IMG/VR virus record: IMGVR_UViG_3300037174_000181
Location: 1 to 40,550 of that record
DNA from: a virus
Direction: 5' to 3' (one strand)
Length of the DNA: 40,550 nt
The position numbers and the translations under genes were made by a program. Under the pieces are notes generated by a model. The model did not search any database, was not told the DNA's origin, and saw only the letters and a list, made by a program, of their open reading frames with translations. Shown in pieces: positions 636 through 40,550 of this stretch (positions are counted from its first letter, which is position 1; each line of letters starts with the position of its first letter).

Positions 636-737
636 ATGACCCGGAGCAAACTTTACGGCGCGGTCAAACTCGGGCGCACCGCCATAGGCGTACAAGCGCG
701 AGCATGGGCTACGCTATACATAAAGGAGGGGGTATAA
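636..737 (+). CDS. Leader mini-ORF carrying only the cassette-end module (33 aa)
   Basis: ATG at 636 lies behind AGGAGCTGGAC. It encodes 33 residues beginning MTRSKLYGAVKLGRTAIG and ending ARAWATLYIKEGV. The last 13 residues are the same ending found on the array members, and the stop TAA overlaps the ATG of unit 1 (TAATG). It lacks the conserved N-terminal domain and the repeat tail. The simplest reading is a translated leader that brings ribosomes to the first cassette and supplies its ribosome binding site, since the KEG codons are the Shine-Dalgarno. It could also be the relic of a collapsed cassette. No other function is visible. Confidence 0.7.
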   Translation: MTRSKLYGAVKLGRTAIGVQARAWATLYIKEGV

Positions 738-1171
738 TGTGCAAAATTATCACGCTGGCGCAGCTAAAAGCCGCAGGCGCGTGCGCCGATGCGCTGCAGT
801 GCTTCGCCGCCGCGTTCGGGGAGAGCACACCGGTGACGCCGTCCCTCGCCGGTAAATACGCGACTCAGTTTAGTTGGGACTGGGCCGCGGGTAATCTTCT
901 CTCAAGGCCCGCACGGGCCGAGTACTATAGGGCCTGCGCGCGCGCACGGGCCGAGTATGATCGAGACCACGAGTACGCCCGGGTCGAGTACGCCCGGGCC
1001 GAGTATGATCGGGCCGTCGCCCCCGCCCCCGCGCAAACCAAGCGCAATAAAGTCATCGCGCGAGCATGGGCTACGTACACTGAGGCCGCCGTGCGCGCGC
1101 AGACCGAGTACGCTAGGGCCTGCGCGCGAGCATGGGCTACACTATACACAAGGGGGGGATATAATGCGTAA
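737..1171 (+). CDS. Array unit 1: N-terminal domain plus EY-repeat tail protein (144 aa)
   Basis: The start is the ATG of the TAATG overlap, with AAAGGAGGGGGTATA before it. Residues 1-60 are the family domain (MCKIITLAQLKAAGACADAL, GESTPVTPSL, GKYATQF, SWDWAA). The tail is rich in RAEY/RVEY and carries a QTKRNK block and two ARAWAT segments. It has the STPVT plus GKYA haplotype. The protein runs past the usual stop into the next gene, ending YTRGGYNA, because the ending module is one base short. The fold is probably all helical. I recall phage and prophage proteins with a similar domain followed by AWAEY-type repeats, but know no function for them. Confidence 0.8.
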   Translation: MCKIITLAQLKAAGACADALQCFAAAFGESTPVTPSLAGKYATQFSWDWAAGNLLSRPARAEYYRACARARAEYDRDHEYARVEYARAEYDRAVAPAPAQTKRNKVIARAWATYTEAAVRAQTEYARACARAWATLYTRGGYNA

Positions 1172-1565
1172 TATTATCACGCTGTCGCAGCTAAAAGTCG
1201 CAGGCGCGTGCGCCGATGCGCTGCGGCGCTTCGCCACCGCGTTCGGGGAGAGCACACCGGTGACCCTGGCTCTCGCCTGCAAGCACGCGGATCAGTTTGA
1301 TTGGGACTGGGCCGCGTTATATCTTCTCCCGGCGCCCGCCCGAGCCGAGTATGGTCAAGACCGCGAGCGCGCACAGGGCGAGTATGATCGAGACCACGAG
1401 TACGCCCGGGTCGAGTACGCCCGGGCCGAGTATGATCGGGCCGTCGCCCCCGCACTCTCCTTGGCTACGTACACTGAGGCCTGCGCGCGAGCGCAGACCG
1501 AGTACGCTAGGGCCTGCGCGCGAGCATGGGCTACGCTATACACAAGGGGGGGATATAATGTGTAA
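1164..1565 (+). CDS. Array unit 2 (133 aa)
   Basis: ATG at 1164 overlaps the end of unit 1 by eight bases, behind a run of seven G that serves as the Shine-Dalgarno. The N-terminal domain starts MRNIITLSQLKVAGACADAL and has the STPVT, LAL and CKHADQF variants. The tail shares its DRDHEYARVEYARAEYDRA stretch with unit 1, then a shortened VAPALSLATYTEACARAQ. Like unit 1 it misses the canonical stop and ends YTRGGYNV inside unit 3. Sharing both tail blocks and the poly-G ending with unit 1 suggests these two arose by a recent duplication. Confidence 0.8.
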   Translation: MRNIITLSQLKVAGACADALRRFATAFGESTPVTLALACKHADQFDWDWAALYLLPAPARAEYGQDRERAQGEYDRDHEYARVEYARAEYDRAVAPALSLATYTEACARAQTEYARACARAWATLYTRGGYNV

Positions 1566-1968
1566 TATTATCACGTTGGCGCAGCTAAAAGCCACGGCCA
1601 CGGGCGACGTGGATCAGTTTGATTGGGACTGGGCCGCGTCATATCTCCTCTCGGCGGCCGCGCGGGCCGAGGGCGATAGACTCCGGGCCGAGGGCGACAG
1701 GCTCATGGCCGATGGCAATAGACTATGGACCGAGGCCCTCAGGCTCATAGACGAGGGCGACAGGCTCGTGGCCGGTGGCAATAGGCTCCGGGCCGATGGC
1801 AATAGACTATGGACCGAGGCCCGCGCGGCCGCCGAGAGGAGATATGACGAGGGCGACAGGCTCGTGGCCGATGGCAATAGGCTCCGGGCCGATGGCAATA
1901 GGCTCCGGACCGAGGCCCTCAGGCTCATAGACGAGGGCGACAGGCTCATGGCCGGGAAGGAGGCTTAA
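1558..1968 (+). CDS. Array unit 3: truncated domain with a heptad-repeat tail (136 aa)
   Basis: ATG at 1558 overlaps unit 2. The domain begins MCNIITLAQLKA, then about 28 residues present in the other units are missing. It resumes at VDQFDWDWAASYLL. The tail differs from all the others: a strict seven-residue period of the type xAxGDRL / ADGNRL / TEALRL, with Leu every seventh position. That is a heptad coiled-coil pattern, whereas the other units are spaced mostly by 11. It contains an internal duplication of TEALRLIDEGDRL and ends MAGKEA without the cassette-end module. So one cassette has swapped in a foreign or diverged tail. Confidence 0.75.
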   Translation: MCNIITLAQLKATATGDVDQFDWDWAASYLLSAAARAEGDRLRAEGDRLMADGNRLWTEALRLIDEGDRLVAGGNRLRADGNRLWTEARAAAERRYDEGDRLVADGNRLRADGNRLRTEALRLIDEGDRLMAGKEA

Positions 1969-1972
1969 CCTG

Positions 1973-2344
1973 ATGACATACCGCGCAATTTACGACGACG
2001 CCACCACGCGCGCGCGGGCCGAGTGCGACCAGGCTGTCAAGCGCGCGCAGGTCGAGTTCGACCAGGCTGTCGAGCGCGCGCGGGCCGAGTATGTCATGGC
2101 CGCTACGCCCGCGTGGACCGCGTACGATCGGGCCGTTGCCCCCCCTAAGGCCACCACATTCGCGCGGGCGCGCGCCGAGTGTAGGGAGGCCACCGCACTC
2201 CCCTGGGCTACGTACACTGAGGCCGTCGCGCGCGCGCGGGCCGAGTATGCGACGGTCTTCCTGTTTGCGCGGGGCAAGCGTAGGAAGGCCATCACACTCG
2301 CGCGCTTGGCCTACGCCCGTGCGCGCGCAGACCGAGCGCGATAA
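1973..2344 (+). CDS. Array unit 4: tail-only member, frameshifted end (123 aa)
   Basis: ATG at 1973 follows AAGGAGG with a nine-base spacer, four bases after the unit 3 stop. It has no N-terminal domain and is repeat tail from the start (MTYRAIYDDATTRARAEC, then QAVKRAQVEFDQAVERARAEY). It stops at 2344, but another frame continues without interruption as AQTERDKTSARAWAHLYIKAGI and ends in the TAATG of unit 5. This indicates a frameshift near the 3' end that separates the gene from the normal ending. It is probably a decayed cassette, though it is still open and has a good ribosome binding site. Confidence 0.6.
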   Translation: MTYRAIYDDATTRARAECDQAVKRAQVEFDQAVERARAEYVMAATPAWTAYDRAVAPPKATTFARARAECREATALPWATYTEAVARARAEYATVFLFARGKRRKAITLARLAYARARADRAR

Positions 2345-2392
2345 AACCAGCGCGCGAGCGTGGGCTCATCTATACATAAAGGCGGGGATATA

Positions 2393-2809
2393 ATGTGCAA
2401 AATTATCACGCTGTCGCAGCTAAAAGCCGCAGGCGCGTGCGCCAATGCGCTGCAGCGCTTCGCCGCCGCGTTCGGGGAAAGCGTGCAAGTGACGCCGGCC
2501 CTCGCCGGTAAATACGCGGATCAGTTTGATTGGAAATGGGCCGCAGATAATCTTCTCTCAATACCCGCGTGGACCGAGTATGAGGCGGCCCGTGTGGCCG
2601 CTTGGGCCAAGTATGAGACGGCCCGTGTCAAGTATGAGACGGCCGTGCTAGTCGTATTAAATAGCCCCCCGAGTGCGCGGGACGGCGTCGTGCAATGCCC
2701 GCACGGGCCGTCTCATATGAGCCGACGCGCCATCAACGCTGCGCAAACCAAGCGCAATAAAGCCATCGCGCGGGCGTGGGCTACATTATACATAAAGGAG
2801 GGGATATAA
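2393..2809 (+). CDS. Array unit 5 (138 aa)
   Basis: The start at 2393 follows AAAGGCGGGGATATA, a one-base variant of the usual ribosome binding site. The domain carries VQVT plus GKYADQF and DWKWAADNLL. The tail begins PAWTEYEAARVAAWAKYE. It then has a diverged VLNSPPSARDGV block (LLNSPPSEQDGV in units 6 and 7) and QTKRNKAIARAWATLYIKEGI. It ends TAATG into unit 6. It is the first unit of the regular part of the array, where every boundary uses the same stop/start overlap. Confidence 0.8.
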   Translation: MCKIITLSQLKAAGACANALQRFAAAFGESVQVTPALAGKYADQFDWKWAADNLLSIPAWTEYEAARVAAWAKYETARVKYETAVLVVLNSPPSARDGVVQCPHGPSHMSRRAINAAQTKRNKAIARAWATLYIKEGI

Positions 2810-3273
2810 TGTGCAAAATTATCACGCTGGCGCAGCTAAAAGCCGCAGGCGCGTGCGCCGATGCGCTGCAGCGCTTCGCCGCCGCGTTCGGGGAGAGCAC
2901 ACCGGTGACGCCGTCCCTCGCCTGCAAGCACGCGGATCAGTTTGATTGGGACTGGGCCGCAGATAATCTTCTCTCGGCGGCCGCGCAGGTCGAGTATGAC
3001 CAGGCTGTCAAGCGCGCGCAGGTCGAGTATGAGACGGCCGCCGCGCCCGCGCGGGTCAAGTATGCCGCCGCCGCCGCGCCCGCGCTAGCCTTGTTAAATA
3101 GCCCCCCGAGTGAGCAGGACGGCGTCGCCCGCGCGCACTTATGGGCTAAATATGATCGGGACCGCGAGCGCGCGCAGGTCGAGTACGATCGGGCCGCCGC
3201 CGCCGCGCTAGCCGAGTACGATAGGACCTGCGCGCGGGCGTGGGCTCATCTATACATAAAGGAGGGGATATAA
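2809..3273 (+). CDS. Array unit 6 (154 aa)
   Basis: TAATG start with AAAGGAGGGGATATA. The domain has CADAL, STPVT, PSL and CKHADQF. The tail contains QVEYDQAVKRAQVEYE, also seen in unit 4, then AAAAAPALALLNSPPSEQDG and ARAHLWAKYDRDRERA, shared with units 7 and 9. It ends CARAWAHLYIKEGI. The WAHLY variant rather than WATLY recurs in unit 13 and in the lost frame of unit 4, which again suggests shuffling of end modules among units. Confidence 0.8.
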   Translation: MCKIITLAQLKAAGACADALQRFAAAFGESTPVTPSLACKHADQFDWDWAADNLLSAAAQVEYDQAVKRAQVEYETAAAPARVKYAAAAAPALALLNSPPSEQDGVARAHLWAKYDRDRERAQVEYDRAAAAALAEYDRTCARAWAHLYIKEGI

Positions 3274-3275
3274 TG
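3258..3275 (+). promoter_or_regulatory. Representative cassette junction: ribosome binding site inside the upstream C-terminus, TAATG
   Basis: AAAGGAGGGG (3258-3267), ATA, then TAATG (3271-3275). In the upstream frame this reads K-E-G-I-stop; in the downstream frame the ATG starts the next unit. The same junction, with ATA or GTA, is found at 735-739, 2807-2811, 3801-3805, 4361-4365, 4891-4895, 5511-5515, 6047-6051 and 6475-6479. The Shine-Dalgarno is near ideal, so each stop should be followed by efficient re-initiation. Confidence 0.9.
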
Positions 3276-3803
3276 TGCAAAATTATCACGCTGGCGCAGC
3301 TAAAAGCCGCAGGCGCGTGCGCCAATGCGCTGCAGCGCTTCGCCGCAGCGTTCGGGGAAAGCGTGCAAGTGACGCCGTCCCTCGCCGGTAAATACGCGGA
3401 TCAGTTTAGCTGGGACTGGGCCGCAGATAATCTTCTCCCGGCGCCCGCGCGGACCGAGTATAAAATAGTCGAAGCGCGCACTTGGGCCGAGTATGAGATA
3501 GTCGTCGCGCGCGCTTGGGCCGAGTGCGCTCAGGCCGTCGCCCCCGCACAGGCCAAGTACGCCGCCGCCGCCGCGCCCGCGCTAGCCTTGTTAAATAGCC
3601 CCCCGAGTGAGCAGGACGGCGTCGCCCGCGCGCACTTATGGGCTAAATATGATCGGGACCGTGAGCGCGCGCTAGCCGAGTATGATCGGGCCGTCGCCCC
3701 CGCGCGAACCAAGCGCAATAAAGCCGTCGCCCCCGCGCGAACCAAGCGCAATAAAGCCGTCGCGCGAGCGTGGGCTACGCTATACACAAAGGAGGGGGTA
3801 TAA
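3273..3803 (+). CDS. Array unit 7 (176 aa)
   Basis: TAATG start. The domain has CANAL, VQVT, PSL, GKYADQF and SWDWAADNLLPAPA. The tail starts TEYKIVEARTWAEYEIVVAR, a block reused in units 11, 12 and 13. It continues with AAAAAPALALLNSPPSEQDG and a back-to-back duplication of VAPARTKRNKA (33 bp each, about 3688-3755). It ends ARAWATLYTKEGV. The fresh 33-bp duplication shows that tails change length in frame by tandem duplication. Confidence 0.8.
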   Translation: MCKIITLAQLKAAGACANALQRFAAAFGESVQVTPSLAGKYADQFSWDWAADNLLPAPARTEYKIVEARTWAEYEIVVARAWAECAQAVAPAQAKYAAAAAPALALLNSPPSEQDGVARAHLWAKYDRDRERALAEYDRAVAPARTKRNKAVAPARTKRNKAVARAWATLYTKEGV

Positions 3804-4363
3804 TGACCAAAATTCTCACGCTGTCGCAGCTGAAAGCCGCAGGCGCGTGCGCCGGTGCGCTGCGGCGCTTCACCGCCGCGTTCGGGGAGAGCACACCGGT
3901 GACACCGGCCCTCGCCTGCAAGCACGCGGATCAATTTAGCTGGAACTGGGCCGCGGATAATCTTCTCTCGGCGCCCGCTCAGGCCGCGTACGATCGAGCT
4001 ACCGAGCGCGCTTGGGCCGCGTACGATCGGGCCGCCGCGCCCGCCCGGGCCAAGTACGCTGTCGCCGCCGCGCGCGCTTGGGCCGCGTACGATCGGGCCG
4101 CCGCGCCCGCGCGGGTCAAGTACGCCGCCGCCGCGCCCGCGCTAGCCTTATTAAATAGCCCCCCGAGTGAGCGGGACGGCGTCGCCCGCGCGCGCCTATG
4201 GGCCAAGTATGATCAAGACCGCGAGCGCGCGCAGGTCGAGTATGATCGAGACCGCGAGTACGCCCGGGCCGAGTATGATCGGGCCGTCGCCCCCGCGCGA
4301 ACCAAGCGCAATAAAGCCGTCGCGCGAGCGTGGGCTACGCTATACACAAAGGAGGGGGTATAA
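3803..4363 (+). CDS. Array unit 8 (186 aa)
   Basis: TAATG start. Units 8-10 form a subgroup with MTKIL instead of MCKII and with CAGALRRFTAAFG. This unit has STPVT, PAL and CKHADQF. The tail is the clearest 11-residue repeat of the array: successive AYDRAAAPARA / KYAVAAARAWA / AYDRAAAPARV blocks put Tyr exactly every 11 residues. LLNSPPSERDGV, YDRDREYARAEYDRA and ARTKRNKAVARAWATLYTKEGV follow. Hendecad spacing predicts a long continuous helix or a coiled coil with little supercoiling. Confidence 0.8.
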   Translation: MTKILTLSQLKAAGACAGALRRFTAAFGESTPVTPALACKHADQFSWNWAADNLLSAPAQAAYDRATERAWAAYDRAAAPARAKYAVAAARAWAAYDRAAAPARVKYAAAAPALALLNSPPSERDGVARARLWAKYDQDRERAQVEYDRDREYARAEYDRAVAPARTKRNKAVARAWATLYTKEGV

Positions 4364-4893
4364 TGACCAAAATTCTCGCGTTGTCGCAGCTAAAAGCCGC
4401 GGGTGCGTGCGCCGGTGCGTTGCGGCGCTTCACCGCCGCGTTTGGAAAGAGCGTGCAAGTGACGCCGTCCCTCGCCGGTAAATACGCGGATCAGTTTAGC
4501 TGGGACTGGGCCGCAGATAATCTTCTCCCGGCGCCCGCCCGGGCCGCGTACGATCGAGCTACCGAGCGCGCTTGGGCCGAGTATGAGACGGCTGCCGCGC
4601 CCGCGCGGGTCAAGTACGCCGCCGCCACCGCCGCCGCGCGGGTCAAGTATGCCGCCGCCGCCGCGCCCGCGCTAGCCTTGTTAAATAGCCCCCCGGGTGA
4701 GCGGGACGGCGTCGCCCGCGCGCACTTATGGGCTAAATATGATCGGGACCGTGAGCGCGCGCTAGCCGAGTATGATCGAGACCGCGAGTACGCCCGGGCC
4801 GAGTATGATCGGGCCGTCGCCCCCGCGCGAACCAAGCGCAATAAAGCCGTCGCGCGAGCGTGGGCTACGCTATACACAAAGGAGGGGGTATAA
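4363..4893 (+). CDS. Array unit 9 (176 aa)
   Basis: TAATG start. The domain begins MTKILALSQLK, has GKSVQVTPSL (Lys where the others have Glu) and GKYADQF. The tail starts like unit 8 (AAYDRATERAWA), then has VKYAAATAAARVKYAAAAAP, apparently a local duplication of ARVKYAAA. It continues with LLNSPPGERDGV and the same EYDRDREYARAEYDRA and TKRNK ending as unit 8. So it combines the 8/10-type start, the 5/7-type haplotype pair and an 8-type tail. Confidence 0.8.
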   Translation: MTKILALSQLKAAGACAGALRRFTAAFGKSVQVTPSLAGKYADQFSWDWAADNLLPAPARAAYDRATERAWAEYETAAAPARVKYAAATAAARVKYAAAAAPALALLNSPPGERDGVARAHLWAKYDRDRERALAEYDRDREYARAEYDRAVAPARTKRNKAVARAWATLYTKEGV

Positions 4894-5513
4894 TGACCAA
4901 AATTCTCGCGTTGTCGCAGCTGAAAGCCGCGGGCGCGTGCGCCGGTGCGTTGCGGCGCTTCACCGCCGCGTTCGGGGAGAGCACACCGGTGACCCTGGCC
5001 CTCGCCTGCAAGCACGCGGCCCGGTTTAGCTGGGACTGGGCCGCAGATAATCTTCTCCCGGCGCCCGCCCGAGCCGAGTATGATCAAGACCGCGAGCGCG
5101 CACAGGGCGAGTACAAGACGGCCATCGCGCCCGCCCGGGCCTATTACGCCACAGTCGTCAAGCTTGCGGAGGCCGAGTACGAAAAGGCCCATGCTCGCGA
5201 GCGGGCCGAGTACGATAAGATCACCGCACAAGCGTGGGTCGAGTATAAGAGGGCCGTCGCCCCCGCCCGGGTCGAGTATGACCAGGCCGTTACACAGGCG
5301 CTAGTTGAGCACAGGAGGCCTAAATATGAGCATGCCTCCGCGCCTGTATGGGTCGAGCGCAGGAAGGCCCGCGTGGGGGCGTGGGTCGAGTACGATCGGG
5401 CCGTCGCCCCCGCGCGAGCCGAGTACGCCCGGGCCGTTACACAAGCGCTAGTTGAGTACAGGCAGGCCTGCGCGCGAGCATGGGCTACACTATACACAAA
5501 GGAGGGGATATAA
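4893..5513 (+). CDS. Array unit 10, the longest member (206 aa)
   Basis: TAATG start. The domain starts MTKILALSQLK with STPVT, LAL and CKHAARF (the usual ADQF is replaced). The tail is long: RAEYDQDRERAQGEYKTA, a unique YYATVVKLAEAEYEKAHA stretch, then RAVAPARVEYDQAVTQALVE and a diverged HRRPKYEHASAPVWVERR copy. It ends AVTQALVEYRQACARAWATL and YTKEGI. The VTQALVEY end module is shared with units 11 and 12 and absent from units 1-9, a directional spread along the array. Confidence 0.8.
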   Translation: MTKILALSQLKAAGACAGALRRFTAAFGESTPVTLALACKHAARFSWDWAADNLLPAPARAEYDQDRERAQGEYKTAIAPARAYYATVVKLAEAEYEKAHARERAEYDKITAQAWVEYKRAVAPARVEYDQAVTQALVEHRRPKYEHASAPVWVERRKARVGAWVEYDRAVAPARAEYARAVTQALVEYRQACARAWATLYTKEGI

Positions 5514-6049
5514 TGTGCAAAATTATCACGCTGGCGCAGCTGAAAGCCGCAGGCGCGTGCGCCGATGCGCTGCAGCGCTTCGCCGCAGCGTTCGGGGAAA
5601 GCGTGCAAGTGACACCGGCCCTCGCCTGCAAGCACGCGGATCAGTTTAATTGGGACTGGGCCGCAGATAATCTTCTCCCGGCGCCCGCCCGAGCCGAGTA
5701 TGAGATAGTCGTCGTGCGCGCGGCCGCCGAGTATGAGACGGCCGCCGCGCCCGCGCGGGTCAAGTACGCCGCCGCCGCCGCACAGGCCAAGTACGCCCGG
5801 GCCGAGTACGCTCAGGCCGTCGCGCGCGCCCGGGCCAAGTGCAATCGTACCAGCGCATCGGCGCAAGCCAAGTACGATAGAGCCTGCGCCAATGCGCTGC
5901 AGCGCTTCGCCTCCGCGTCCGGGGAGTATGATCGGGACCGTGAGCGCGCGCGAGCCGAGTACGCCCGGGCCGTTACACAAGCGCTAGTTGAGTACAGGCA
6001 GGCCTGCGCGCGAGCGTGGGCTACATTATACATAAAGGAGGGGATATAA
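5513..6049 (+). CDS. Array unit 11, tail contains a copied domain fragment (178 aa)
   Basis: TAATG start. The domain has CADAL, VQVT, PAL and CKHADQF, a combination seen only here and in unit 12. In the tail, after SASAQAKYDRA, comes CANALQRFASASGE. This is nearly the same as the CANALQRFAAAFGE of the N-terminal domain in other units, at DNA level as well (about 5885-5926). A piece of domain has therefore been inserted into the helical tail. It ends VTQALVEYRQACARAWATLY and IKEGI. Confidence 0.8.
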   Translation: MCKIITLAQLKAAGACADALQRFAAAFGESVQVTPALACKHADQFNWDWAADNLLPAPARAEYEIVVVRAAAEYETAAAPARVKYAAAAAQAKYARAEYAQAVARARAKCNRTSASAQAKYDRACANALQRFASASGEYDRDRERARAEYARAVTQALVEYRQACARAWATLYIKEGI

Positions 6050-6477
6050 TGTGCAAAATTATCACGCTGTCGCAGCTGAAAGCCGCGGGCGCGTGCGCCA
6101 ATGCGCTGCAGTGCTTCGCCGCCGCGTTCGGGGAAAGCGTGCAAGTGACGCCGTCCCTCGCCTGCAAGCACGCGGATCAGTTTAGCTGGGGCTGGGCCGC
6201 GTCATATCTTCTTTCAAGGCCCGCGCGGGCCGAGTATAAAATAGTCGAAGCGCGCGCCCGGGCCAAGTGCAATCGTACCAGCGTATCGGCGCAAGCCAAG
6301 TACGATAGAGCCTGCGCCAATGCGCGGCAGCGCTTCGCCTCCGCGTCCGGGGAGTATGATCGGGCCGTCGCCCCCGCGCGAGCCGAGTACGCCCGGGCCG
6401 TTACACAAGCGCTAGTTGAGTACAAGCAGGCCATCGCGCGAGCATGGGCTACGCTATACATAAAGGAGGGGGTATAA
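6049..6477 (+). CDS. Array unit 12 (142 aa)
   Basis: TAATG start. The domain has CANALQCF, VQVT, PSL, CKHADQF and SWGWAASYLLSRPARAEY. CF and SRPARAEY are shared only with unit 1, at the far end of the array. The tail has EYKIVEARARAKCNRTSVSA, then the same inserted domain fragment as unit 11 (here CANARQRFASASGE), YDRAVAPARAEYARAVTQAL and the IARAWATLYIKEGV ending. The mixture of unit 1-like and unit 11-like segments is a clear sign of exchange between distant units. Confidence 0.8.
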   Translation: MCKIITLSQLKAAGACANALQCFAAAFGESVQVTPSLACKHADQFSWGWAASYLLSRPARAEYKIVEARARAKCNRTSVSAQAKYDRACANARQRFASASGEYDRAVAPARAEYARAVTQALVEYKQAIARAWATLYIKEGV

Positions 6478-6875
6478 TGTGCAAAATTATCACGCTGTCG
6501 CAGCTAAAAGCCGCGGGCGCGTGCGCCAATGCGCTGCAGCGCTTCGCCGCCGCGTTCGGGGAGAGCACACCGGTGACCCTGGCCCTCGCCGGTAAATATG
6601 CGGATAAGTTTGATTGGGAATGGGCCGCGTCATATCTTCTCCCAATGCCCACGCGGACCGAGTATGAGATAGTCGTCGCGCAGGCACGGGGTGGGTATAG
6701 TAGGGCTATTGAGGAAGCGTGGGCCGATTACGAGGAGGCCATCGACCCCGCACAGGCCGAGTATGATCGCGCCGAGTACGCCCGGGTCAAGTGCAATCGT
6801 ACCATCGCCTCTGCGCAAGCTAAGTACGATAGGGCCTGCGCGCGAGCGTGGGCTCATCTATACATACAGGTATGA
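6477..6875 (+). CDS. Array unit 13, last member (132 aa)
   Basis: TAATG start. The domain has CANAL, STPVT, LAL, GKYADKF and DWEWAASYLLPMPT. The tail carries more acidic residues than the others (GGYSRAIEEAWADYEEAIDP), then KCNRTIASAQAKYDRACARA and WAHLYIQV. The cassette-end module is degenerate here: the Shine-Dalgarno codons are lost and the stop TGA overlaps the next ATG as ATGA. This marks the right boundary of the array. Confidence 0.8.
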   Translation: MCKIITLSQLKAAGACANALQRFAAAFGESTPVTLALAGKYADKFDWEWAASYLLPMPTRTEYEIVVAQARGGYSRAIEEAWADYEEAIDPAQAEYDRAEYARVKCNRTIASAQAKYDRACARAWAHLYIQV

Positions 6876-7270
6876 TCATGCCCGACCCCTTTGATATTTT
6901 CGACCGGCTCGCCGGTGACGCGCCACGGGAGCGCACCGGCGAGCCGGCGCCGGTCATCGGCGAAGAATTATCCGTGCGTTTACAACATAACCTGTCCTTG
7001 GCGGTCCACCGCCAAGGTGAGCTTTTGAGTCGTCCGGTGTACGCCGAGGATGATATTAAAGAGCGGCGTTTGGTTGCTGAGGTAGCCAATAATGTAGCGA
7101 GGCTCGCGGCAAGTGTGAATGCAACCGCCTTGCAAGCGCGTAAGGACAATTTCCTCGCGCGCGTGCTTATAGTGTTGGCACAAGAAAAACAAAAATTGGG
7201 CTATGAGCTGGGCGAAGAGGAACTGAAACGGCTGGGAGAAGCCCATGACAGGCACATTGAGAGATCCTGA
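6872..7270 (+). CDS. Hypothetical protein between array and replication module (132 aa)
   Basis: It begins MIMPDPFDIFDRLAGDAPRE with the ATG inside the ATGA overlap with array unit 13; a second ATG lies six bases downstream. The N-terminal third is Pro/acidic. The rest is helical, with an Ala/Val/Leu segment (EVANNVARLAASVNATALQA) and a charged C-terminus. It is not related to the cassettes. The size and helical character would suit a small terminase or a DNA-binding accessory protein, but I recognise no motif. The next gene starts inside its last codons, so the two are translationally coupled. Confidence 0.7.
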   Translation: MIMPDPFDIFDRLAGDAPRERTGEPAPVIGEELSVRLQHNLSLAVHRQGELLSRPVYAEDDIKERRLVAEVANNVARLAASVNATALQARKDNFLARVLIVLAQEKQKLGYELGEEELKRLGEAHDRHIERS

Positions 7271-9692
7271 CAGTATTATGCTCCCGTTCTTCGCCGCCGT
7301 ATTGCCGGCGACAGGCATCTATTGTGCGTCGTTCAAGTCCGGGCGGGGCCGGTTTCGCAGCTCGTTTCATACGACCCGAGCTGCGCTTGCCCGCGCAATC
7401 CAAGAGGCCGATCGTGACGGCCTGGAGACCTACTACGCCGTCGCCTCCTACAAACAAGGCACGTCCCGCGAAGCTGCCAACGTCGCCTCCTTGCAGGCTT
7501 TATGGCTCGACATAGACTACGGGGACGGGCACGCGCCCGAGGTTGCCGGCTACGCGACCCGAGACGAGGCTATCGCCGCCGTGCGTGAGTTCTGCGGCAC
7601 TGCGAACCTGCCACCGCCGATGCTGGTCTTTTCGGGCGGGGGCCTGCATGTTTATTGGCCGTTGGCAGAGCCGCTCGCCGTGCAAAATTGGCTGCCCTAC
7701 GCGCTTGGCCTTAAAGCCCTCAGCGTGACCCATGAGCTACGTGCGGATCATAGGGTAACTGCCGACGCGGCGCGTATCCTGCGGCCACCGTGCACTACAA
7801 ACCGTAAAAGGCGAGGCGACCCGCGCCCTGTTGAGTTCGATCCGCGGTGGCTTCAACTCAAGCCCTATGTGCTCGCCGGCACGGCATTTGGCGCCGCGCT
7901 TCTTTCAGCCTCCCCCGATGGACATATACGACAATCTGTCGCGCCACTTGGTGTGCTCGGTTGCAAACCGGCTTATCTCAACGGCCCGCTGGCCCCGACA
8001 CTCGCCGCGAAACTCACCATGCCGGTGGACTTGGCAGATGCCGGCGCGGTCGCGGACCAATGCCGGCAACTAGGTCATATGCGCGCAACGCGCGGGCTTA
8101 TGGTCGAGCCTGCTTGGCGGGGCGCTATTGGCCTACTGGCGTTCTGCGATGACGGCCGGGCGTTGGCGCACGCCTGGAGTCAAGGCGACACACGATACTC
8201 ACGAGCTGAAACAGACGCGAAGTGGGACGGGGTCAGAAAGCAGACCGGTCCGACCACATGCGCCTATTTTCAGGGCCTCGACGATGTAACGCGCGGGCGC
8301 TGCGCAGCCTGTAGGCACAGGGGGTTGATCACAACCCCCTTGCAGGCGCCGGAGCGGGCCGGTGCACCCCTGGCACCCGGGGCAGAGGTTCCGGCTACCG
8401 GGCAAGAGCTGGACATAGCCGAGCTGAATTCGCGGCACTTTTTAATCAAAATTGGCTTTAGCGTGGTAGTTGGCGAGCTGCAACGCGACCCTCTCGGGCG
8501 CGAAGGCGCGTTTTCGTATGTCACCAAGGCGGGGTTTGAGCTGCTGTACGCACCCCGCACGACAGTCCCGGCCGGCACTTACAAGCGCGTGCCGTTAGGT
8601 CCCTATTGGCTCAGCCACCCGGAGCGGCGCCAGTACGTCGGCCTCGACATAGTGCCGGGAGGCCCGAGAGACCTCGCCGACCGACGGCTGAACCTCTGGT
8701 CAGGCTGGGGCGTCGAGCCGGCTCCCGGGAACTGGAGCCGCATGAAGAAGCATATTTCATCGATCTTGGCGAACGGCGACCCGCACGCGGCGGAGTACAT
8801 AGTCCGTTGGACCGCTTGGGTATTGCAGCATCCGGCGGAGCAGCCGGGCGTAGCTCTGACTATTCGGGGGGGCAAAGGCTCGGGTAAAGGTTTGTATTTT
8901 GATACGCTACAAAGAATGTTCGGCCGACACTCCCTCGCTGTCGCAAGCCAAGAGCATCTACTTGGCCGGTTCAACCGGCACTTGCTGGACAGTCTGTTCG
9001 TCTTTATTGACGAGGGATTCTGGGCGGGGGATAAAAAATCGGAGGGGGTGCTCAAACGGCTAATAACGGATCGGACGATGATAGTTGAAATTAAAGGTGT
9101 CGACGCGGTCGAAGCCCGGAATCGCATTGCTTTTGCAATCGCCACCAACGCCGAGTGGGTTGTTCCCGCGGGGGCCGGCGAGCGGCGCTATGCCGTGTTC
9201 GAGACCAACGATAAATATGTAAAAGGTCATAACCCGCAAGCGACGATTGATGCCTATTTTGAACCGCTCTATGCCGAGCTGGAGGGCGGTGGACGGGCGG
9301 CGATGCTGTATGATTTACTGGCGCTGCCGCTCGGCACGTGGCACCCGCGACAGGTTTACGAGACAGCGGCCTTGGCTGAACAGAAAGAGCTGTCGCTCAA
9401 CCAATTTGATGCGTGGTGGCTCGAGTGCCTCGAGGATGGTCGCCTGCCCGGTATCCACCCGGCGGGTCAGCCGTTCCGGGTGTTGCCGGTGAGTTGCGCC
9501 GAGGCTATCGGGGGCAATCGGTTCTCGGCGCGCGGCGTCACTATGCACTTGCAAAAATTGGGGTTTTGCCTCGCCCGCACCGCCGAAGCGCGCTACTGGT
9601 CCGCGCCCCCGCTTGAGCAGGCGCGCGCCGCGTGGGAGCAGAAATTTGGCGCGCGGACGTGGAGGCTGGACAATTTGGATGGATGGAGCTAA
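7245..9692 (+). CDS. Primase-helicase: AEP-type primase plus SF3-like (DUF5906 / NrS-1-like) helicase (815 aa)
   Basis: Residues about 20-230 look like an archaeo-eukaryotic primase (prim-pol) domain: LDIDYG near residue 87 gives the acidic pair, and SGGGLHVYW near 130 gives the catalytic Ser/His motif. The C-terminal half matches phage replicative helicases of the NrS-1/DUF5906 type. It has a Walker A GGKGSGKG near 541, Walker B LFVFIDEG near 584 and the conserved KGVDAVEARNRIAFAIATNA block after it. It probably lays primers and unwinds at the fork for the family A polymerase encoded downstream. The chosen ATG follows GGGAGAAGCCC; a later ATG at 7278 has a weaker site. Part of the helicase domain is duplicated just downstream. 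Confidence 0.9.
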   Translation: MTGTLRDPDSIMLPFFAAVLPATGIYCASFKSGRGRFRSSFHTTRAALARAIQEADRDGLETYYAVASYKQGTSREAANVASLQALWLDIDYGDGHAPEVAGYATRDEAIAAVREFCGTANLPPPMLVFSGGGLHVYWPLAEPLAVQNWLPYALGLKALSVTHELRADHRVTADAARILRPPCTTNRKRRGDPRPVEFDPRWLQLKPYVLAGTAFGAALLSASPDGHIRQSVAPLGVLGCKPAYLNGPLAPTLAAKLTMPVDLADAGAVADQCRQLGHMRATRGLMVEPAWRGAIGLLAFCDDGRALAHAWSQGDTRYSRAETDAKWDGVRKQTGPTTCAYFQGLDDVTRGRCAACRHRGLITTPLQAPERAGAPLAPGAEVPATGQELDIAELNSRHFLIKIGFSVVVGELQRDPLGREGAFSYVTKAGFELLYAPRTTVPAGTYKRVPLGPYWLSHPERRQYVGLDIVPGGPRDLADRRLNLWSGWGVEPAPGNWSRMKKHISSILANGDPHAAEYIVRWTAWVLQHPAEQPGVALTIRGGKGSGKGLYFDTLQRMFGRHSLAVASQEHLLGRFNRHLLDSLFVFIDEGFWAGDKKSEGVLKRLITDRTMIVEIKGVDAVEARNRIAFAIATNAEWVVPAGAGERRYAVFETNDKYVKGHNPQATIDAYFEPLYAELEGGGRAAMLYDLLALPLGTWHPRQVYETAALAEQKELSLNQFDAWWLECLEDGRLPGIHPAGQPFRVLPVSCAEAIGGNRFSARGVTMHLQKLGFCLARTAEARYWSAPPLEQARAAWEQKFGARTWRLDNLDGWS
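8623..9382 (+). repeat. Helicase-domain segment, copy A of a direct repeat
   Basis: 8623-9350 matches 9795-10522 collinearly without gaps (offset 1172). Then 9351-9362 is missing from copy B, and 9363-9382 matches 10523-10542. The copies have scattered base differences that change ten amino acids, so this is a real duplication and not an assembly echo. Confidence 0.95.
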
Positions 9693-9751
9693 AGATGGTT
9701 GACAATTTGGGGGAACGGGGCTAAAGATAATTGACAAAAAGGAAGAGAAAC
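9693..9751 (+). promoter_or_regulatory. Short intergenic spacer with two GCTAAAGATRRTTGACAA repeats
   Basis: Two imperfect copies of GCTAAAGAT-(GG/AA)-TTGACAA flank a G-rich stretch, and AAAAAGGAAGAG just before 9752 serves as ribosome binding site. Two TTGACA words are present, but I find no well-spaced -10 for either. A promoter here is only a weak possibility. Confidence 0.3.
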
Positions 9752-10570
9752 ATGGCTGATAGCTATCAACAGCGCGGTAATCCGCGATACCCCAAGCGGC
9801 GCCAGTACGTCGGCCTCGACATAATGCCGGGAGGCCCGAGAGAACTCGCCGACGGACGGCTGAACCTCTGGTCAGGCTGGGGCGTCGAGCCGGCTCCCGG
9901 GAACTGGAGCCGCATGAAGAAGCATATTTCATCGATCTTGGCGAACGGCGACCCGCACGCGGCGGAGTACATAACCCGTTGGACCGCCTGGGTTTTGCAG
10001 CATCCGGCGGAGCAGCCGGGCGTGGCTCTGACTATTCAGGGGAGCAAAGGCTCGGGTAAAGGTTTGTATTTTGATACACTGCAAAGGATGTTTGGCCGAC
10101 ACTCCCTCGCTGTCGCAAGCCGAGAGCATCTACTTGGCCGGTTCAACCGGCACTTGCTGGACAGTCTGTTCGTCTTTATTGACGAGGGATTCTGGGCGGA
10201 GGATAAAAAATCGGAGGGGGTGCTCGAACGGCTAATAACGGATCGAACGATGATAGTTGAAATTAAAGGTGTCGACGCGGTCGAAGCCCGGAATCGCATT
10301 GCTTTTGCGATCGCCACCAACGCCGAGTGGGTTGTTCCCGCGGGGGCCGGCGAGCGGCGCTATGCCGTGTTCGAGACCAACGATAAATATGTAAAAGGTC
10401 ATAACCCGCAAGCGACGATCGATGCCTATTTCGAACCGCTCTATGCCGAGCTGGAGGGCGGCGGGCGGGCGGCGATGCTGTATGATTTACTGGCGTTGCC
10501 GCTCGACACGTGGCACCCGCGAACAGCGGCCTTGGCTGAACAATTTGGATGGATAGAGAAACATGGCTGA
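9752..10570 (+). CDS. Duplicated stand-alone helicase domain, chimeric gene (272 aa)
   Basis: The first 15 residues (MADSYQQRGNPRYPK) are the start of the next gene. Then follow about 240 residues of the upstream helicase domain, then a short new end (FGWIEKHG). Walker A is GSKGSGKG and Walker B FIDEG; both are intact, as is the arginine-rich GERRYAVFE region. Ten substitutions and a four-codon deletion separate it from copy A. It has no primase domain. It could be a functional paralog that assembles with the full-length protein, or a neutral duplicate. The ATG at 9752 has a good Shine-Dalgarno; a TTG seven codons upstream is in frame but less likely. Confidence 0.8.
   Translation: MADSYQQRGNPRYPKRRQYVGLDIMPGGPRELADGRLNLWSGWGVEPAPGNWSRMKKHISSILANGDPHAAEYITRWTAWVLQHPAEQPGVALTIQGSKGSGKGLYFDTLQRMFGRHSLAVASREHLLGRFNRHLLDSLFVFIDEGFWAEDKKSEGVLERLITDRTMIVEIKGVDAVEARNRIAFAIATNAEWVVPAGAGERRYAVFETNDKYVKGHNPQATIDAYFEPLYAELEGGGRAAMLYDLLALPLDTWHPRTAALAEQFGWIEKHG
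9795..10542 (+). repeat. Helicase-domain segment, copy B of a direct repeat
   Basis: Counterpart of 8623-9382. The left junction lies inside the reading frame of the MADSYQQ gene (after CCCCAAG). The right junction rejoins at AATTTGGATGGAT, which also occurs at the end of the primase-helicase gene (about 9675-9687). That short homology probably served the recombination. Confidence 0.9.
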
Positions 10571-22029: not shown

Positions 22030-23241
22030 TCACTTAATTTCTTCCCAATTTACTCGGTCGTCGTAATCTCCTGAGCCTTTATATCTCAGCCTTTTGCCCT
22101 TATAGTCGATTTCCTCTCGGGGCGACTTCGTGAGCAGCCCGTTGAGCTTCCGCTTTGCCGTCTCCAGCGCTCCCCCGTCAGCTCGATTATCCACCTCCGC
22201 ATTACTCTTCCGCTCGGCCGCCGGGGGCTCGTGGGTGATACTTGGCTCGGTCTTGTACTCTCGTTCAATTTCCTCGCGCTGCTTGTCCAACTCCTTGATT
22301 TGACCAGCGGCTTCTTTGATTAACCGGGGCTTCTCCTCCGGGTCCACCATGACACTCGAGGCCTTTGCGTCGAGATCAAGCGCGCGCAGCTTGGCCTGCG
22401 TGTTCTCCTTTATAAGCCGCTGTTGCGTCTTAAGAGTGGCTTGTGCCGCGCGGTAGGCGAAGTCGCGCTCGTCCTTATTTGTAGAGTGCGACAATACGTC
22501 GCGGTGAAGGGACAATTGTTCTTTAAATTGTTCGCTGAGTCGGGCTTCGTGCTGCTCTGCCAGCTGGACTTTGGTGTCGAGCGCTCGGCCGCGCTCCGTC
22601 TCTTGCGCCCTATGCGACCGTTCCACTTCTTCTTCCCTGCGGATGGCGAGTTGCGGTTGCACTTGCCGCCACGCCTGAAGCGCTTGCGTGTTCATGACCG
22701 GCTCGAGTGTCTTAATCACTCGCATGAATTCCTCGGGGCGCCCCTGCGGGTTCGCCTGTCTCCAAGCCCGCGCGATCTGCTCGAGAGTCATTTGCCCGAC
22801 CGGCAACTGCCCCTGAGGTTGCGCTTGCTGCGGGGGCTGCTGCGGGGGCTGCTGCTGGGGCTGCTGCGGGGGCTGCTGCGGGGGCTGCTGCGGGGGCTGC
22901 TGCTGCTGGGGCTGCTGCGGGGGCTGCTGCGGGGGCTGCTGCGGGGGCTGCTGCGGGCCACCCCCCAATGGACTTTGCAGTTGCCCCTGAGGTTGCGCCT
23001 GCGGGACGGGCGGTTGTGCACCGCCAATCCCGAGCTTGCTCAACAAGCCACCAAGCCCGGTCGGCTGCTGCGGCGGACCACCAAGCCCGTACATTTGCAA
23101 CAGCGTATTACCCGCTGGCGCATTGGATTGGTTCTGTAGTTTTTGTTGCAGCATCGCCATAATCGCCGGGTCAACCGTCTGTGCGAAGCCGCCTCCTACC
23201 GAGCCTAAAAGATTGCCGATACCACCGCCGAATCCTGCCAT
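22030..23241 (-). CDS. Internal virion protein with PQQPPQQ repeats and coiled coil (403 aa)
   Basis: Gly-rich start (MAGFGGGIGNLLGSVGGGFA), a Pro/Gln low-complexity block (residues about 95-145), then a long charged coiled coil (REEEVERSHRAQETERGRAL onward). The C-terminus is basic/acidic mixed. It sits in the internal-core cluster, and similar Gln-rich proteins occur in this position in other podophages. It probably scaffolds or forms part of the ejection apparatus (inference). Confidence 0.7.
   Translation of the reverse strand: MAGFGGGIGNLLGSVGGGFAQTVDPAIMAMLQQKLQNQSNAPAGNTLLQMYGLGGPPQQPTGLGGLLSKLGIGGAQPPVPQAQPQGQLQSPLGGGPQQPPQQPPQQPPQQPQQQQPPQQPPQQPPQQPQQQPPQQPPQQAQPQGQLPVGQMTLEQIARAWRQANPQGRPEEFMRVIKTLEPVMNTQALQAWRQVQPQLAIRREEEVERSHRAQETERGRALDTKVQLAEQHEARLSEQFKEQLSLHRDVLSHSTNKDERDFAYRAAQATLKTQQRLIKENTQAKLRALDLDAKASSVMVDPEEKPRLIKEAAGQIKELDKQREEIEREYKTEPSITHEPPAAERKSNAEVDNRADGGALETAKRKLNGLLTKSPREEIDYKGKRLRYKGSGDYDDRVNWEEIK
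22828..22956. repeat. GCTGCGGGG-type microsatellite encoding PQQ repeats
   Basis: Short in-frame repeats of CTGCGGGGG / CTGCTGG units inside the 403-aa gene. They encode PPQQ blocks of varying register. A length-variable, slippage-prone tract. Confidence 0.85.
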
Positions 23242-40400: not shown

Positions 40401-40454
40401 CCCCCCTGAAAACCCGAGTTCGGCCTACCCCCCTGAAAACCCGAGTTCGGCCTA
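40401..40454. repeat. Two tandem 27-bp repeats joining the 12-bp array
   Basis: CCCCCCTGAAAACCCGAGTT plus CGGCCTA, at 40401-40427 and 40428-40454. The units are identical. Each ends in the same CGGCCTA as the 12-bp repeat that follows, so the short unit looks like an internal deletion of the long one. Confidence 0.9.
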
Positions 40455-40532
40455 CCCCCCGGCCTACCCCCCGGCCTACCCCCCGGCCTACCCCCCGGCC
40501 TACCCCCCGGCCTACCCCCCGGCCTACCCCCC
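40449..40532. repeat. 12-bp GGCCTACCCCCC tandem repeat (seven copies)
   Basis: Seven exact copies, continuing as the four copies at the left end of the window if the molecule is circular. The opposite strand reads G6-TAGGCC repeatedly, which can form G-quadruplexes. Copy number may be collapsed by assembly. Confidence 0.95.
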
Positions 40533-40550
40533 GGCCAGTAATTTTACGGT
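40482..40550. other. Terminal overlap identical to bases 1-69 (circular contig)
   Basis: The last 69 bases equal the first 69, including 18 unique bases after the repeat array (GGCCAGTAATTTTACGGT). This is what an assembler leaves when it closes a circle; length without the overlap is 40,481 bp. A real 69-bp terminal repeat is possible but less likely. Confidence 0.85.

Follow-up and report, generated by a model that had tools for sequence, protein, structure and literature searches.

A chained array of paralogous genes with self-encoded ribosome binding sites ahead of the replication genes of a phage genome

The window analysed here is the whole of IMG/VR virus record IMGVR_UViG_3300037174_000181, 40,550 bases in length including a 69-nt terminal overlap; the circular assembly measures 40,481 bp. 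A 33-codon leader open reading frame (ORF) at 636-737 is followed by 13 ORFs at 737-6875, all on the + strand and arranged head to tail, so that the array spans 6.24 kb or 15.4% of the circular assembly. An earlier note, made from the sequence alone, had placed a leader and 13 paralogs at 636-6875 in about 15% of the genome, and these coordinates prove exact to the base. It had also described modular paralogs with a common head and variable tails, twelve of them carrying a shared N-terminal domain that is truncated in unit 3. Comparison of the units bears this out: an intact N-domain of ~60 residues is present in 11 of the 13, unit 3 retains a truncated version and unit 4 has none. The genes are as follows, with lengths in amino acids (aa).

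636-737, + strand: leader ORF, 33 codons; short lead-in, then the family C-terminal motif ARAWATLYIKEGV; TAATG into unit 1
737-1171, + strand: unit 1, 144 aa; N-domain full
1164-1565, + strand: unit 2, 133 aa; N-domain full; 8-nt overlap with unit 1
1558-1968, + strand: unit 3, 136 aa; N-domain truncated; tail of 7-residue (21-bp) heptad repeats
1973-2344, + strand: unit 4, 123 aa; no N-domain; C-terminal motif in another frame (ORF 2091-2393, ending ...ARAWAHLYIKAGI)
2393-2809, + strand: unit 5, 138 aa; N-domain full
2809-3273, + strand: unit 6, 154 aa; N-domain full; the unit modelled below
3273-3803, + strand: unit 7, 176 aa; N-domain full
3803-4363, + strand: unit 8, 186 aa; N-domain full
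4363-4893, + strand: unit 9, 176 aa; N-domain full
4893-5513, + strand: unit 10, 206 aa; N-domain full; longest tail in the array
5513-6049, + strand: unit 11, 178 aa; N-domain full; copied N-domain piece (ACANALQRFASASGE) inside the tail
6049-6477, + strand: unit 12, 142 aa; N-domain full; tail with the same captured N-domain piece as unit 11
6477-6875, + strand: unit 13, 132 aa; N-domain full; C-terminal end ...AWAHLYIQV, without the KEG codons

The N-domains of the 11 full units share 73-90% identity with that of unit 7 and conform to the head motif L..L...GAC...L..F...FG....VT......A..F.W.WAA..LL. The same number of units hit the family profile at 90-104 bits, a profile built in part from these units. 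In unit 3 the N-domain remnant consists only of MCNIITLAQLKA fused to DVDQFDWDWAASYLL. An A(W/F)AxLYI-like C-terminal motif closes all units except 3 and 4. Between head and C-terminal motif the tails are built of 11-residue repeats, with an 11-step that is less strict than in other phages; tails and tips differ strongly, and net charge across the units ranges from -4 to +11. Unit 3 also holds inverted arms (1634-1682 and 1804-1852, 49 nt, 88% complementary), and a piece of cassette seems to have been inverted in its tail.

At nine of the 13 internal junctions (leader/1 and 5/6 to 12/13) the stop and start codons overlap by 1 nt as TAATG preceded by AAAGGAGGGG, which is the configuration of a translationally coupled chain (a 1-4-nt stop/start overlap with an upstream Shine-Dalgarno sequence, SD); two more junctions overlap by 8 nt. 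The final codons of the leader and of units 5-12 read K-E-G-I/V-stop (AAGGAGGGGATATAA or AAGGAGGGGGTATAA) and place a purine run a few bases before the next ATG. The earlier claim that these KEG codons form the SD of the following gene in each regular cassette thus stands for nine junctions with a self-encoded ribosome binding site and does not extend to all of them. At junction 4/5 the DNA motif (AAAGGCGGGGATATAATG) is retained and the reading frame of unit 4 stops 48 nt earlier. The 8-nt overlaps at 1/2 and 2/3 arise because the upstream frame is shifted near its end (...TRGGYNA/V), with the SD-ATG distance unchanged, as if in the ends of units 1 and 2 the ribosome binding site and not the peptide had been conserved. 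Junction 3/4 is a 4-nt gap behind AAGGAGG, and unit 13 meets the next gene through an ATGA overlap without a strong SD. TATAAT occurs in each junction but was not accepted as a promoter: the codons (GTA TAA TG) require it, and a scan gave no -35 partner.

The predicted SD energies lie between -11.0 and -12.6 kcal/mol in 12 of the 13 units, with unit 5 weaker at -7.6; the mean over 32 other starts is -5.9, and random windows average -3.4. The SDs of the array rank among the strongest in the genome. The leader, which is essentially the C-terminal motif alone, is perhaps enough to pass a ribosome to unit 1. For reinitiation, short 3' regions of upstream genes suffice, according to PMC10666635.

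Related genes were sought with DNA patterns derived from GAC...L..F...FG and F.W.W and then with a profile; an alignment of the very diverse heads was unusable for pattern search, and the patterns are narrow, so all family counts are lower bounds. At least 45 IMG/VR contigs contain the family, as does the cultured Planktothrix phage Pag-Yong1 in three adjacent genes, and the heads in other phages are homologous at 27-58% identity. Searched over whole records, 39 contigs including a sister contig of the window (see below) carry 9, 8, 4, 3 and fewer copies; once the sister is set aside, 20 of the remaining 38 have two or more. The arrangement, for which the earlier note named no parallel beyond single phage proteins of this general type, is therefore not unique: the profile search of phage contigs returned arrays of 9 and 8 and many of 2-4. 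Among related contigs of at least 15 kb, 16 of 35 end less than 1 kb from a member versus 2.1 expected, and it follows that arrays break assemblies and are undercounted. Bacterial homologues were found in none of 1,150 sampled genomes from three large groups, and the same profile matched 39 of 39 virus records. Several candidate relatives were discarded: 18 pattern matches in genome_contigs, taken as bacterial homologues, are chance matches by the profile; PDB matches to TLP-IPT and others reflect composition or short stretches; matches in Corynebacterium phages are confined to the repeat tail. The weak PHROG matches of unit 3 likewise fall mainly on its repeat tail.

Seven other IMG/VR contigs share self-encoded ribosome binding sites, at 15 junctions in all, with 4-8-nt overlaps and the SD in the preceding C-terminal codons. 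These contigs are 3300047172_000041 (nine heads), 3300033990_000214 (L070; a six-unit chain) and contigs of L032, L025, L022, L038 and L035. The C-terminal peptides that encode the SDs differ between contigs (MEYCK, GDTP, AEGAK, DGEKS...). Since chains recur with differing codons and peptides, the design is, judged by these sequences, either a property of the family or one that arose repeatedly. At 3916-10163 L070 holds, besides its six-unit chain, two separate members whose C-terminal end differs (GEDTLQASQ); a primase lies in between.

A tree of 88 heads groups the copies by phage, requiring 16 changes for 17 groups, the minimum, compared with a mean of 44.6 after shuffling; the tree rests on 62 columns, too few to settle its deep forks. 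Such clustering would mean either that amplification took place many times independently or that the copies of each phage were homogenised. For the window, all four combinations occur at 399 of 630 informative site pairs, and at least 12 exchange intervals fall in 165 nt; by this count the heads of the window are mosaics. Taken modulo 11 residues, the tail lengths of the family are concentrated (p=3e-9), and stalks therefore lengthen and shorten in 33-bp steps. A preference for 22-residue steps, expected for a symmetric hairpin, is absent; the steps are of 11. The pooled synonymous difference is 0.21, so the copies are not recent. The pooled ratio of nonsynonymous to synonymous substitution (dN/dS) is 0.47, and values of 0.28-0.53 are obtained in four of five arrays, rough because the paralogs recombine; by these ratios most arrays show selection on the protein. 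With homologous heads elsewhere, a pooled dN/dS of 0.47 and strong SDs, the array is not a product of chance.

The AlphaFold2 model of unit 6, calculated with 37 homologues (predicted local distance difference test, pLDDT, 94.1; predicted template modelling score, pTM, 0.83), folds residues 1-55 into a strand-helix-helix-strand-helix-helix head, which is followed by long helices at 57-96 and 105-152 with a short turn between them; the head modelled alone reaches a pLDDT of 88.6. Going by the helix lengths, the C-terminal AWAHLYI would return beside the head. Whole-chain Foldseek matches are generic coiled coils, and an uncharacterised BFVD protein (A0A8S5UXY4) that superposes over 54 residues at 1.8 Å has E=0.74; both were set aside.

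The order of the units other than unit 9 is supported by a sister contig, IMGVR_UViG_3300037238_000146, which has zero mismatches to the window across 17,998 bases compared; the two samples are perhaps not fully independent. It is 500 bases shorter and lacks 4364-4794, apparently unit 9, a stretch that runs from one copy into the other of the sole exact repeat in the window longer than 127 bp:

4237-4391, + strand: 155-bp exact direct repeat, copy 1; end of unit 8/start of unit 9
4767-4921, + strand: 155-bp exact direct repeat, copy 2; end of unit 9/start of unit 10

The sister ends 127 bases into copy 1, at 4363, and 28 into copy 2, at 4795, with a 99-nt terminal overlap. These ends fall where a k=127 graph break in the 155-bp repeat predicts (the k of the assembler is deduced), so the contig was rejected as a copy-number variant and is not evidence that unit 9 was deleted; its terminal overlap looks like a repeat-induced assembly break and not a genome end. 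An 11-bp minisatellite of CCCGGCCTACC at 1-55 and 40450-40550 spans the contig join, and the sister reads through it, which supports circular or permuted ends.

The array is flanked by two further features:

576-604, + strand: sigma-70-like promoter TTGACA-17-TATTAT; 11 of 12 consensus positions matched, on consensus alone, the best in the whole window
6872-7270, + strand: next gene, 132 aa, without an assigned identity; ATGA overlap with unit 13

The placement directly behind the best promoter, as first described, is confirmed in that the 576-604 site is the top consensus match of the window. Downstream of the 6872 gene lies a primase (phrog_1156, 4e-43), and the array heads a same-strand gene set of primase, PolA-type polymerase, exonuclease, endonuclease and helicase. 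The early position proposed before agrees with this site at the front of the replication operon and with relatives that in most of the contigs tested lie near primase, polymerase, helicase or exonuclease genes (primase in L020, L029, L070 and L030; polymerase in L017 and L024; helicases in L059, L063 and L085); for L026, L034 and L078 structural genes lie inside the examined stretch. The role in host takeover or counter-defence that the note drew from the early position would be conjectural. At 9731-10570, after the primase gene (7245-9692), the C-terminal half of that gene recurs as a partial copy of 279 aa; the exact repeats measure 119 bp (8683/9855) and 110 bp (9138/10310). Upstream of the array promoter stands a near-perfect 74-nt palindrome (342-415; 37-nt arms, 89%, no spacer), and the intergenic stretch 67-162, near the genome join, has three 32-bp direct repeats with TCTGGTACCACACTCATTTTGTC. 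Elsewhere, a 403-aa minus-strand ORF (22030-23241) contains a long P/Q-rich repeat (QQPPQQPPQQ).

We tentatively read the locus, with confidence a little below even, as a co-transcribed, chained array of paralogs that would supply a recombination-shuffled repertoire of host- or defence-binding proteins. Each unit would comprise an alpha/beta head of ~60 residues, then 11-residue repeats folded as a helical hairpin, and at the C-terminus an A(W/F)AxLYI.EG segment. A ribosome ending one unit would restart at the overlapping ATG through the SD spelled by the last codons, and by that route all units would be made together, early and strongly. Homologous recombination could add, drop or mosaic units with frame and translation unbroken, because a single short DNA motif makes up the regular junctions and the cassettes share long identities, and 33-bp steps would alter stalk length. 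The heads may have one common interaction, with tails and tips varying to give the repertoire, which would be maintained by amplification of the gene-accordion type. It is possible, though rather doubtful, that the family as a whole forms a widespread phage system of this kind, a co-translated helical-hairpin repertoire with cassette recombination, 11-residue stalk steps and freely adjustable array length; equally doubtful is the further suggestion that such a system is the phage counterpart of a variable-repertoire gene family.

Several observations weigh against the repertoire interpretation. Many phages carry a single copy, and the L070 array has a dN/dS of 0.97, on few changes. No profile match was returned for the head in Pfam, PHROG or NCBIfam, nor for known anti-phage defence proteins in PADLOC, and Foldseek against the PDB gave nothing significant for the head or whole-unit models. 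As to active gain and loss of units, no genuine copy-number variant came to light, the difference in the single close relative being an assembly artefact.

The strongest rival is a heteromeric structure, in which the units would co-assemble through their heads into an intracellular scaffold or filament during replication, stalk lengths would mark positions, and copy number would follow the architecture of the complex and not an arms race. Overlapping starts and stops are characteristic of subunits of heteromeric complexes (PMC10666635), uniformly strong SDs predict similar amounts, the head is conserved with a stalk of stepwise length, and in many phages members are neighbours of replication genes. 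Between 1 and 13 copies in different phages, clustered by phage, are not what a fixed complex predicts, and we consider this structure unlikely, if a serious contender.

The very strong SDs, the first-operon position and the identity of the heads to that of unit 7 would also suit simple dosage, more copies giving more of one protein with near-neutral sequence differences; strongly divergent tails and tips, the range of net charge and a synonymous difference too large for recent copies make that improbable. Scarcely more probable is a largely selfish, recombination-driven expansion of a repeat-rich gene, tolerated since the cassettes carry their own translation signals. Repeats at three scales (33 bp, cassette and 155 bp), the decay of unit 4 and the truncation and internal inversion of unit 3 fit such an expansion, but heads are intact in 11 of 13 units, most arrays have a dN/dS below 1, and 15% of a size-limited genome is given over to the array. 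Short-read assemblers mishandle repeats, as the excess of related contigs ending near a member illustrates, yet an assembly artefact is very improbable given units that differ in sequence and a second, mismatch-free contig broken only at the positions predicted for k=127, 4795 and 4363.

If the units of the proposed repertoire bind host or defence targets, the array would be a ready panel of natural variants. The family, which has no name in the main libraries, is carried by many uncultured phages, forms chains repeatedly and takes up as much as 15% of a genome, an investment that implies a strong selective role. As short-read assemblies break in arrays, many contigs are split there and related arrays have possibly been missed widely. 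Tandem paralogs and overlapping genes are known already. In the literature searched, which did not extend to most subscription papers, the family is not described, and neither these papers nor the libraries yielded a widespread, unnamed family of phages with repeated formation of chains that encode their own ribosome binding sites.

Among known systems, short gene overlaps couple translation and are enriched among subunits of heteromeric complexes (PMC10666635). Overlapping stop and start codons are common to this array and to coupling through 1- or 4-nt overlaps as described in PMC10666635 and PMC6728339; here, by comparison with those descriptions, the junction repeats along a long series of paralogs and the last codons of the preceding gene spell the SD in every regular unit. 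Integron gene cassettes are marked by attC sites and an integrase; the junction in this array is a plain ribosome binding site motif. The 11-residue periodicity of long helices is shared with hendecad coiled coils, a resemblance only, and unlike these the family is predicted to form an antiparallel hairpin on an unrelated small head. The three adjacent Pag-Yong1 genes (UMO76048-UMO76050, annotated as hypothetical) share the head motif, with E values of 1e-8 to 4e-6 against the first profile, and a C-terminal FAxLYv-like motif as in this family; they differ in short tails without 11-residue repeats, 2-nt gaps and weak pairwise similarity. On the evolutionary side the closest precedent, by analogy, is the amplification of counter-defence genes by recombination in phages T4 and T6 (PMC9391042, PMC13096335). 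Tandem phage gene copies are common to the tifA-type gene accordion and this array, and in the segmental amplification of tifA and other anti-defence genes, too, recombination amplifies an accessory segment of the phage genome. The T4 and T6 amplifications are, in those accounts, recent and laboratory-selected, whereas the copies described here are diverged, cassette-sized, chained by codon overlap and the same in two assemblies.

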